NCBI GenBank assembly: GCA_026399755.1
Contig: JAPLQI010000020.1
Span: 1-64,000 of the forward strand
Length of the DNA: 64,000 bases
Reading direction: 5' to 3'
Source of the DNA: Pseudomonadota bacterium
Lineage (GTDB): Bacteria > Pseudomonadota > Gammaproteobacteria > Burkholderiales > Chitinibacteraceae
Position numbers and translations under genes: made by a program. The notes beneath the pieces are model-generated. The model was not told where the DNA came from and searched no databases. It saw only the letters and a list, made by a program, of their open reading frames with translations. Position 1 is the stretch's first letter. Every line of letters begins with the position of its first letter. Of this stretch, positions 24,499-55,889 are shown one piece after another.

Positions 24499-25419
24499 CT
24501 AGCGCCTTCTCAGCCAAACAATGCGCGGAATCTGATCGCCTTTACGCTCTAATAGCGCTTGAAAGCTCATATTCACTCGACCAAAGTGCGCGTCCACTTC
24601 GCTGATAAAGTAGCGGCTTTGGATAGAAACTGCATCCAGCGATACCGTCGCCTGCAACGTTTGGGGGAGTGCTAGTTTGAACTCTTCGACGCTTTTGAAA
24701 TACTTTCCCGAGCGTTTCGCGATCACGCCTTGGGCTGCAGACACCGATAAGCCGGGGATAATTGCGGCCAATACTTCTGGCCCTACAAAGTTGACATTCA
24801 CAGGAGTGGCTTGCGGCAAGACGCTTACTAGCGGCTCTAGCTTAGCGATCACCTCAGGGCTAAAACCGCGAATGCGCGATAAGCCCTGAATATCTAACAG
24901 GGGACGATTGGCGGCTCGATAAGCATCAGGCATCGCCAAATACTCAACATCTTCTGCCCCACCCGGATAGCGCGTCAGGCTATCTGCATCTAGCCAATCC
25001 ACCAGCGCATTAGCGATATCCAGCGGCAAGCCTAGCGTTTGGAGTAGCTGCTGAAACGCAGCAAAACTCGCCTCATTGAGCACGCCATTTTGCACCACAT
25101 TATTTAAATTAAAGCGCCCCTGTTGCTCTAATAAACGCCCACCGACTCGCCCTGTTTCTACAGGGATGGCCGGAATCGGAATATTCCACGGCTCAAGCTG
25201 ATGATCGATTTGATTATTGCGGGCGTCGTCTCGCAAGGTGAGCCGAGCTAAATTAATCGAAGCACGCGCAATACCGCGTGCTTCGGCCAGATCAAATTGA
25301 TTTTCTAATTGACGAAACCATAGCTGCTGCCGCCAGGCGATCGCCACCGCCAGTGTAGTCACCAAGGCTGCGGTCAGTACCGCAGTAATGATGGCAATGC
25401 CTTTTTGTTTACGCATCAT
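24499..25419 (-). CDS. gspK: Type II secretion minor pseudopilin GspK
   Basis: About 306 residues from ATG 25419 (or 305 from ATG 25416, MRKQKGIAII). A short basic leader ends at Gly, and the mature protein begins IAIITAVLTAALVTTL. GspK characteristically lacks the Glu at mature position 5 that other pseudopilins have, and this one does too. The large globular domain contains RFNLNNVVQN, the helix-hairpin-helix-like region GLSRIRGFSPEVIAKLEPLV and VNVNFVGPEVLAAIIPGLS. GspK caps the pseudopilus with GspI and GspJ. Its start overlaps the stop of the chimeric frame at 25416-25613. No gspL or gspM follows. Confidence 0.9.
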   Translation of the reverse strand: MMRKQKGIAIITAVLTAALVTTLAVAIAWRQQLWFRQLENQFDLAEARGIARASINLARLTLRDDARNNQIDHQLEPWNIPIPAIPVETGRVGGRLLEQQGRFNLNNVVQNGVLNEASFAAFQQLLQTLGLPLDIANALVDWLDADSLTRYPGGAEDVEYLAMPDAYRAANRPLLDIQGLSRIRGFSPEVIAKLEPLVSVLPQATPVNVNFVGPEVLAAIIPGLSVSAAQGVIAKRSGKYFKSVEEFKLALPQTLQATVSLDAVSIQSRYFISEVDAHFGRVNMSFQALLERKGDQIPRIVWLRRR

Positions 25420-25693
25420 GGCAGGGTGTAAATCCTTTGTACGGTACTGCCTTCGGCGAGCGTTAGATTTATTTTCATATCCTGTTGTGGCACTTTTGAT
25501 TGATTTTCTAATTGCCAAAACCATAGCTGCAGCCTATTAATAGCCACCGCCAGTGTAGTTACCAAGGCTGCGGTCAGTACCGCAGTAATGATGGCAATGC
25601 CTTTGCGCATCATGGGAGGGTGTAAATCCTTTGTACGGTGCTGTCATCCCCTAGAGTGAGCTTCACTTTTACGCCACGCGGTGGCACTTTATT
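25297..25693. repeat. Tandem duplication spanning the gspJ/gspK junction
   Basis: Copy A is about 25297-25499 and copy B about 25500-25693; corresponding points are about 194-203 bases apart. Shared landmarks include TTGATTTTCTAATTG (25297 and 25500), GCGGTCAGTACCGCAGTAAT in both copies, and GGGTGTAAATCCTTTGTACG in both. Each copy contains the end of gspJ followed, on the minus strand, by the start of gspK. The copies have diverged at many positions but keep frame. Confidence 0.92.
25416..25613 (-). CDS. Chimeric mini-pseudopilin (GspK start fused to GspJ end)
   Basis: An intact frame of 65 codons was created by the junction duplication. Residues 1-40 reproduce the GspK N-terminus: basic leader MMRKG, then the hydrophobic helix IAIITAVLTAALVTTLAVAI. 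Residues 41-65 reproduce the GspJ C-terminus (KINLTLAEGSTVQRIYTLP). Its ATG overlaps the gspJ stop as ATGA, and its own stop overlaps the gspK start the same way, so translation should pass from gspJ through it into gspK. The leader has the form processed by prepilin peptidase. It may be a neutral by-product that preserves coupling or a membrane peptide that touches the pseudopilus. Confidence 0.65.
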   Translation of the reverse strand: MMRKGIAIITAVLTAALVTTLAVAINRLQLWFWQLENQSKVPQQDMKINLTLAEGSTVQRIYTLP

Positions 25694-26209
25694 ATTGCCA
25701 GCGGGTGGCCAGCTTGGCTGCCATTGGCTGGCCGCATCTAAAAATGTGGCTTCAAAACCGCGGATATTCTCGAGTAAAACATGCACCTGTGGCTCTTCAC
25801 GCGGCCCCAGATCGAGTGCATTCCAAAGCAGTAATTCTAAGCGACCATTGTTGAGGCGATAAGCCACGTGAAAAGCGTCCCGATTGCGATCTAAGCGGAT
25901 TAACTCTAGCGGTTGATCATCTTTACGCTCAGGCTTATTCGTGCCGCGCATCGCAGGCTGCTCTACCCCACCCTGATCGCGCCAAGGCCGATCCACCGCT
26001 TGGCTCACATCTTCTTCCATGCGATCAAACACAAGAGACAAATCCCGCCACCGCTTGGCTTCAGCATCTAAAGCCGTACGCGTTTGCGCCACCGACTCCA
26101 GCCCCTTATACGAAATCAGCGTCACCACACTAAACACCGCCAGTGCGATTAAGATTTCCAGCAGGGTAAAGCCCGCTTGTTTAGGCCTGAGCACTTTAAT
26201 GGGGAACAT
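25610..26209 (-). CDS. gspJ: Type II secretion minor pseudopilin GspJ
   Basis: About 199 residues from ATG 26209; a TTG two codons earlier is possible. A prepilin leader ends KQAG, and the mature protein starts FTLLEILIALAVFSVVTLIS with Glu at position 5. The globular part has the GspJ features RWRDLSLVFDRMEEDVSQAV and IRGFEATFLDAASQWQPSWP. GspJ forms the pseudopilus tip with GspI and GspK, which is needed to push folded substrates through the outer membrane secretin. It overlaps gspI at its start and the chimeric frame at its end. Confidence 0.93.
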   Translation of the reverse strand: MFPIKVLRPKQAGFTLLEILIALAVFSVVTLISYKGLESVAQTRTALDAEAKRWRDLSLVFDRMEEDVSQAVDRPWRDQGGVEQPAMRGTNKPERKDDQPLELIRLDRNRDAFHVAYRLNNGRLELLLWNALDLGPREEPQVHVLLENIRGFEATFLDAASQWQPSWPPAGNNKVPPRGVKVKLTLGDDSTVQRIYTLP

Positions 26210-26567
26210 GAGCAAGGTAACTAACCAGAGTAGCCGACGCGTGTTGATTATCGTCGACAGAAAAAACTTTTATTTCGATGCGGCGAAAGCTGCGATTCGG
26301 CGATCCGCCTGTTTCTACCCGCCATGTAAAATCCATGCCCGCCTGAGATTCAACGCCACTTGTTGTGCCTATATCGGGCCATGCGCCCAAGGCGGCCAAC
26401 TCGTTTAAGCGGTTTTGCGCCACCCAGCCTGCTGCGGTGCGGTTTTTTAGCTCGATGCCGTTATTGGTACTCGCCAAAGTGGCTTTCATCGCCGCGCCCA
26501 TAGCGATGGCAATCACCGCCAGCGCCACCAGCACTTCGATCAAGGTAAAGCCCGTATTTTTACGCAT
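26196..26567 (-). CDS. gspI: Type II secretion minor pseudopilin GspI
   Basis: About 123 residues from ATG 26567 ([12 protein letters not shown]); the frame is open to 26594 but that part overlaps gspH coding sequence. The leader ends with Gly and is followed by FTLIEVLVALAVIAIAMGAA, with Glu at mature position 5. The C-terminal half matches GspI: TAAGWVAQNRLNELA near residue 50 and the final beta strands. The start overlaps the gspH stop by eight bases and the stop overlaps gspJ, which indicates coupled translation. Confidence 0.93.
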   Translation of the reverse strand: MRKNTGFTLIEVLVALAVIAIAMGAAMKATLASTNNGIELKNRTAAGWVAQNRLNELAALGAWPDIGTTSGVESQAGMDFTWRVETGGSPNRSFRRIEIKVFSVDDNQHASATLVSYLAHVPH

Positions 26568-38653: not shown

Positions 38654-40357
<1,704 letters not shown>

Positions 40358-54632: not shown

Positions 54633-54843
54633 GTAATTCTCCAGAGGTGGTTTTATAAGTAAAACATTTGCAGCGTATAAAAAAGTCAGCTAGCCTGCTT
54701 GCAAATTACGCAAGCTGTACAAATGGATTCAGCAGCTTAAATGCCTTCCCTACACATAAATTCAATCGGAACAGGCAAAAACAAGCACTCATCGTGATGC
54801 ATTTACCCAGCAAAAATTGGATTAGCCGAACATTATAACAAAA

Positions 54844-55080
54844 TTATGTGAAATCGGCCCACGTAGTACCAAGCAGCAGCGTAAAACATTGGGTACCAGC
54901 TAATCTTGTGAACAAATTTATGCGAAATCGGCCCACGTAGTACCAAGCAGCAGCGTAAAACATTGAGCACCAGCTAATCTTGTGAACTAATTTATGCAAA
55001 ATCGACCCACGTAGTGCCGAGCTGCAGCGTAAAACATTGGGCACCAGCTAACCTTGCGAACAAATTGAAGTGAAATCGGC
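54844..55080. repeat. Three 74-bp tandem repeats plus a partial fourth
   Basis: Units begin at 54844, 54918 and 54992, with a partial unit at 55066. Each contains CCCACGTAGT (54859, 54933, 55007), GCAGCGTAAAACATTG and ACCAGCTAA. Copies 1 and 2 are nearly identical; copy 3 has a few changes. The period of 74 is not a multiple of three, so the frame on the minus strand here is not a real protein. The array runs directly into CGGCGGGCTTCACCCGCCCT at 55076, a unit shared with 18012. No gene is present in 54633-55133. Confidence 0.92.
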
Positions 55081-55133: not shown

Positions 55134-55889
55134 ATGAATGACGCACTAGACCCCATCTTGCAGCAAGAATCCCAACGTCGCCTAAAAGTACAACTAGCAT
55201 GGCGACTTGGCATTGCGGCCACATTAATTGTACTGGTGCTCTTTGGCATCAACTGGCTAGATCAGCAAAAAGAAGCACCACCCTCAGTCCTCACGCCCAT
55301 TCCCCTTATCGCCCCACCGGTCACTGAAGTAGAGCCCTTGCCACTTCCAACAAGCGCCCCCATCGCCAGTGCCGCCATAGAAGCCAGCAGCGCACTGAGT
55401 GTGCATGCACCCATTGCATCCAGCTCGGCATCAGGCGTCATCGAAGGCGCTAACCGTAGACCAACACCAACGCCGCCCTCGCTGACACCCCGCCCAAGCA
55501 TCAGCAAGCCAACACTTAAACTAGAAGCCATTAATCCAGCGGTCAGCAGCACACAAAAACCCGCACCAGAAAGCGCCGTGACTGCAGCCAAACCTGAGCC
55601 AACAACCCGCCCTGCGTCAGTGACCCAAGCCCCGCAAAGCACACCCGTCGCTGCGCCACTCCCTTATCCAGCCGCGCAGCACACCCCAAATGGCTATACC
55701 GTGCAAGCAGGTGTTTTCTTGCAAGCACAAAATGCAGGCAAATTACTCAGCCAACTTAAAGCCGCAGGCATCCCCGCCTTTGCCGAAACCCGTGTGCAAA
55801 TTGGCCCGTTTAAAGACAAAGCCAGTGCCGATGCCGCAGCAGCAAAACTAAAACGCATGGGCATTGATCCGATTGTGCGTGGCAATTAA
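55134..55889 (+). CDS. SPOR-domain membrane protein
   Basis: The product has 251 residues. A short cytoplasmic N-terminus precedes one membrane helix (about 21-42, LGIAATLIVLVLFGINWL). A long Pro/Ala/Ser-rich periplasmic linker follows (about 55-180). The C-terminal SPOR domain (about 182-250) reads NGYTVQAGVFLQAQNAGKLL then AETRVQIGPFKDKASADAA. SPOR domains bind denuded peptidoglycan glycans at the division septum, so this resembles FtsN/DedD-type division proteins. The upstream region is the 74-bp repeat array. GNAT gene 55920 follows after 30 bases. Confidence 0.92.
   Translation: MNDALDPILQQESQRRLKVQLAWRLGIAATLIVLVLFGINWLDQQKEAPPSVLTPIPLIAPPVTEVEPLPLPTSAPIASAAIEASSALSVHAPIASSSASGVIEGANRRPTPTPPSLTPRPSISKPTLKLEAINPAVSSTQKPAPESAVTAAKPEPTTRPASVTQAPQSTPVAAPLPYPAAQHTPNGYTVQAGVFLQAQNAGKLLSQLKAAGIPAFAETRVQIGPFKDKASADAAAAKLKRMGIDPIVRGN

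Follow-up and report, generated by a model that had tools for sequence, protein, structure and literature searches.

A tandem duplication of the gspJ/gspK junction has placed a chimeric frame of 65 codons, here called the mini frame, between its two parent genes in a gsp pseudopilin operon. The chimera is real and, as confirmed by comparison with relatives, common to two species; it is probably old, and it is probably translated. We regard it as an even call that the mini frame is a tolerated, translated by-product of the operon architecture, held open by translational coupling and GspK-like in its helix, and not a dedicated regulator. The window (i.e., the whole stretch of 64,000 nucleotides analyzed) comes from a genome, G000, that we infer to belong to Iodobacter, and the genus set used below consists of nine genomes including this one (among them G003, G004, G006, and G007).

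The Duplicated Junction and Its Chimeric Frame

The mini frame lies within the pseudopilin operon, where open reading frames and Pfam matches on the minus strand give the order gspG, gspH, gspI, gspJ, the 65-codon frame, and gspK. Elsewhere in the window are genes tentatively named gspF, purU, hisZ, purA, and ndk. The features of the junction are as follows.

25610..26215, minus strand: gspJ (open reading frame and Pfam T2SSJ, E 1e-28); its last ~26 codons gave rise to the chimera's tail
25416..25613, minus strand: chimeric mini-pseudopilin frame, 65 codons plus stop (open reading frame, own-genome matches, and homologous frames in G004)
25539..25613, minus strand: mini codons 1-25, GspK-like leader and membrane helix, homogenized with gspK
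25419..25538, minus strand: mini codons 26-65, linker and GspJ-derived tail
25499..25690, minus strand: upstream junction copy, gspJ end and mini start (repeat search)
25296..25496, minus strand: downstream junction copy, mini end and gspK start (repeat search)
25610..25613, minus strand: ATGA overlap of gspJ and the mini frame
25416..25419, minus strand: ATGA overlap of the mini frame and gspK
24499..25419, minus strand: gspK (open reading frame and Pfam T2SSK_1st, E 2.9e-28); its first ~41 codons gave rise to the chimera's head

The original prediction held that the end of gspJ and the start of gspK are present twice in tandem. The repeat search bears this out, coordinates included, in three collinear blocks: 25296-25331 and 25499-25534 (92% identity), 25326-25404 and 25526-25604 (90%), and 25408-25496 and 25602-25690 (76%). 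Read from 25613 to 25416 on the minus strand, the mini frame translates as MMRKGIAIITAVLTAALVTTLAVAINRLQLWFWQLENQSKVPQQDMKINLTLAEGSTVQRIYTLP, with the leader and helix of GspK at its start and the C-terminus of GspJ at its end. A search of its own genome returned three matches, namely, itself, the start of gspK, and the end of gspJ, in agreement with the chimera first described. The stop/start overlaps of the ATGA type that had been read at the two borders are likewise present, the mini frame sharing one with each neighbor. Both borders read ATGATG, with ACCGTACAAAGGATTTACACCCT before each; since ATGATG and the same AAAGGAT stretch recur at each border, each junction copy carries the start region of gspK.

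By comparison with gspK of its own genome and of relatives, the mini frame encodes a prepilin leader with a glycine, followed by a hydrophobic helix; the cleavage site presumably falls after that glycine. It resembles GspK in this leader, in the glycine before the cleavage site, in having T and not E at mature position 5, in its membrane helix, and in a near-identical sequence, but it lacks the soluble domain (there is no T2SSK match) and ends in a GspJ-derived stretch. With GspJ it shares the last ~26 residues, including VQRIYTLP, but not the leader, the helix, or most of the soluble domain. The Pfam search of the 65 residues found no family at E values up to 1, hence no recognized soluble domain of either parent, and the PDB sequence search at the same limit gave a single match, to an unrelated dioxygenase (0.44). 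Within gspK, immediately downstream of the duplicated stretch, lies a terminator-like hairpin of 11 pairs (8 GC) at 25285-25258 on the minus strand; it is among those listed in the region, where two terminator-like sites were found and shuffles gave 0.9.

Distribution Among Relatives

gspK is present in all nine genomes of the genus, and in G004 its start is matched at two additional places. The mini frame itself is carried by two of the nine, as one copy in the window genome and two tandem copies in G004, with none in G007. The units of G004 measure 203 bases each, hold an open 68-codon frame each, and have ATGA at every border. In the other seven genomes gspJ leads directly into gspK with the same overlap, which means that ATGA joins the end of gspJ to the next start in all nine. 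The comparison turned up no middle frame full of stops, the sign that had been named as speaking against the chimera: the frame is missing from seven genomes and open in two. The suggestion that it has survived for some time also holds, as the two carrier species are ~13% apart (4800 aligned columns from neighboring genes). An assembly artifact was considered and is unlikely because a second species carries the same chimera twice on one contig, the G004 assembly being a single contig of 4,726,850 bases, although of unknown read type and depth.

Farther afield, the full-length chimera was found in 2 of 43 family genomes (again G000 and G004), with some match in 39, and in 1 of 349 sampled genomes of the order, namely, that of the window itself, with some match in 50. 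G004 is not among these 50 and was presumably not drawn, and in many genomes of the order sample the best 17 candidates were the ones scored. The remaining matches in family and order are partial and lie inside open frames of at least 198 amino acids. Among viral contigs, 113 stretches fitted a search pattern and none was confirmed; among the papers listed in the literature searches, no title or abstract opening concerned such a chimera. One metagenome bin (L015) titled Janthinobacterium sp. has a gspK 97% identical to that of the window, and its title is probably a misnomer.

Origin and Gene Conversion

The minis of the window and G004 share their breakpoint (LENQ, one residue, K), an AAT in place of an Ala codon of gspK together with the adjacent CTG codon, and CAGGAT in the tail. 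This common breakpoint and these common changes point to one origin in the sequences compared, and they disfavor independent duplications in the two species. The minis form a clade, though with no more than 71% bootstrap over 34 codons. When purU and gspF-K are concatenated and the duplicated parts left out, the resulting tree groups the genomes as ((G000,G007)98,G004)90; the simplest history is therefore one gain before the window and G004 split and one presumed loss in G007.

A different history, compatible with any mechanism, is that the unit moved between species by recombination and is not shared by common descent. G007 lacks the mini although it is closest to the window genome in the concatenated tree (98%), and the single-gene trees, weaker than the concatenated one, disagree: gspI pairs G000 with G004 (73), purU pairs G004 with G007 (41), and gspK places G004 with G003/G006 (81). 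In mid-gspJ, at a distance of ~180-410 bases upstream, identity of the window to G004 (0.87, 0.85) exceeds that to G007 (0.83, 0.76). Between window and G004, dS of the mini tail (0.44-0.63) falls below that of the bulk of gspJ (0.77) and gspK (0.92), although the parent genes also have low values in their junction parts (0.33-0.59). Transfer nevertheless appears unlikely: window-G004 identity at the junction, at 0.87-0.89, is no higher than elsewhere, and the concatenated tree joins G004 to G000 and G007 with 90% support.

The original prediction also stated that the two junction copies have diverged at many bases. This has to be qualified for the helix segment, whose codons in each mini are nearly identical to those of gspK in the same genome. 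For codons 8-27, the topology that groups each mini with its own gspK (lnL -273.9) is 19 lnL units better than the mini clade (-293.1), which supports gene conversion as the process that would homogenize the mini helix with gspK in each genome. The two units of G004 differ at three bases, and the second unit is therefore young or recently converted.

Selection on the Mini Frame

The test for purifying selection on the 65-codon frame, which had been put forward as a check, gives a signal in the helix and none in the linker and tail. For the latter, a branch model over 34 codons (18 + 16, the last eight being left out), with the tree fixed and some branch lengths at bounds, gives an omega of 1.15 for the minis versus 0.054 for the parents. 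An omega of 1 is not rejected (2dlnL 0.09), while equality with the parents is (32.5); under this model, neutral evolution describes the linker and GspJ-derived tail adequately. Pairwise dN/dS of the tail is lower than the branch-model omega, at ~0.49-0.65 over 30 codons; the weak tail constraint that it might indicate is unsupported by the branch model, which includes the parents.

The helix of the minis, on the other hand, has an omega near zero. Over 27 codons an omega of 1 is rejected under two codon-frequency models (2dlnL 7.66 and 9.62), as it is for codons 8-27 (7.51 and 8.21) and under the mini-clade topology (15.2). Compared with its own gspK over codons 1-27, the window mini has 4 synonymous and 0 nonsynonymous differences and the G004 copies have 5/0 and 4/0, differences that are not all independent and lie partly on the gspK side. 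None of the three copies has an amino-acid change in the helix relative to its own gspK, save for a two-codon deletion in the leader of the window mini. In this small test the probability of no amino-acid change is 0.23 with branch lengths of the neutral model and 0.0001 with those of the free model. The helix part of the mini looks to be under protein-level constraint.

A neutral leftover, i.e., an untranslated or inconsequential duplication whose frame happens to be open and whose similarity is due to gene conversion alone, would account for the neutral tail and for the absence of the mini from seven of the nine genomes. Openness by chance is not rare either, as 22-41% of simulated neutral tails were still open after 20-36 substitutions, depending on the start and the number of substitutions, and the absence of stops alone is therefore weak evidence. 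Such a leftover is nonetheless very improbable in view of the unchanged helix, the ATGA borders kept intact in two lineages, and the indels, all of which are in multiples of three (three gaps between the window and G004 minis and one extra G004 codon relative to gspK).

Coupling as the Proposed Force That Keeps the Frame Open

In the history that we favor, ~200 bp around the gspJ/gspK junction would have been duplicated in tandem once, before the window lineage and G004 separated. Each unit would start with a whole initiation site (AAAGGAT, ATGATG, and the leader and helix of GspK) and finish with a whole coupling site (the gspJ end with its stop). The insert could then act as an additional cistron, receiving ribosomes from gspJ and passing them to gspK. 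It would stay open since any stop or frameshift would, through the putative coupling, deprive gspK of its ribosome supply, and its in-frame state would in effect be selected through gspK. In both carriers the frames are open and every border has its ATGA, which speaks for this by-product reading.

A study of overlapping ATGA-type gene pairs (PMC6728339) reports strict coupling in 9/9 pairs of H. volcanii, abolished translation of the downstream gene when the upstream one carries a premature stop, and a coupling efficiency that differs widely between genes. The mini frame likewise has a stop/start overlap at both borders, but here the overlap itself has been duplicated with its flanks. As gspK has an AAAGGAT of its own, it may not depend on coupling. 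The conserved helix protein is a point against the mini as a pure spacer, since a spacer needs none.

Its leader suggests that the mini peptide would be inserted into the inner membrane and undergo the same processing as GspK. The constraint on its helix, which may reflect contacts with pseudopilins or the harm done by a degraded helix, suggests that the product reaches the membrane, while the GspJ-derived tail would be left to drift. The number of units could change, as the copy numbers of the window genome, G004, and G007 would indicate.

A second tandem copy in the window offers a contrast. The 3' end of hisZ has been copied between hisZ and purA (40210-40355 and 40037-40182, 81% identity), and in each of the eight other genus genomes the hisZ end gives a single match. 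One in-frame stop lies immediately upstream of the copy and a second within it, so that no full frame remains and no stretch is longer than 33 codons; the copy does contain an ATG, from which a short frame of 23 codons is possible. It behaves as the coupling reading predicts, being one control and no rule. A further repeat at 54837-55080 consists of three head-to-tail copies with 74-base spacing and lies between a tentatively ndk-like frame (54632-54207, minus strand) and the frame 55134-55889.

A Dose Device or a Membrane Decoy?

The extra cistrons might themselves be the point: one or two of them could determine how much GspK is made in proportion to GspJ by repeated termination and reinitiation, with copy number (0, 1, or 2) as a dial. 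The copy numbers of 1 and 2 in two species and 0 in seven are in line with this, as are the AAAGGAT and ATGATG that every unit has of its own. Yet each unit restores the native start region of gspK, and the dose may consequently stay the same; protein-level constraint on the helix would also be unexpected. We consider such a device distinctly improbable.

Alternatively, the peptide may act as a functional decoy, its GspK helix competing for the place of GspK in the membrane tip complex and its GspJ strand packing on GspI, thereby tempering pseudopilus initiation. The protein-level constraint on the helix agrees with this, and the retained TVQRIYTLP aligns with the C-terminal strand of EpsJ, the inferred equivalent of XcpW beta-11. 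According to PMC6211770, XcpW L193, R195, and R198 contact the GspI homologue; that paper also describes peptides that mimic either side of the XcpV/XcpW interface, disrupt the tip complex, and inhibit secretion. One of these inhibitory peptides is based on an XcpW strand that we equate tentatively with VQRIYTLP; they are designed and soluble, whereas the mini would be a chromosomally encoded membrane peptide. A changed minor-to-major pilin ratio alters pilus dynamics, as stated in PMC13249403. These observations lend plausibility to a decoy, no more than that. On the other side, the linker and the greater part of the tail are consistent with neutral evolution, the conserved tail end overlaps the AAAGGAT stretch and is exposed to conversion, and the mini is absent from seven of the nine genomes, including the closest relative, G007. 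The XcpW alignments, moreover, end before the relevant strand, leaving the equivalence to EpsJ and residue numbers, and PMC6211770 itself states that conservation across species does not extend to the residues of the interface. Taken together, we think a functional decoy unlikely.

Going one step further, the locus could be a new gene being born. The junction duplication would be a cassette (ribosome site, start, helix, and stop overlap) that multiplies between coupled genes without breaking either, and its product a native membrane decoy that tunes assembly of the pseudopilus tip. To us this bolder proposal is rather unlikely.

Significance

Whatever the peptide does, a duplicated stop/start overlap with its flanks has yielded a ready-to-translate chimeric gene and left both parents whole, and the genus offers the states 0, 1, and 2 of the mini for comparison. 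According to PMC7248040, GspK caps the tip and minor pseudopilins initiate assembly; PMC13249403 adds that the overlap of minor-pilin genes is regarded as fixing stoichiometry and that the minor-to-major ratio governs pilus dynamics. Should the mini peptide prove active, it would represent a naturally occurring equivalent of the peptides shown to disrupt the secretion tip complex, and it would provide a handle on how the dose of GspK and its helix contacts control pseudopilus initiation.
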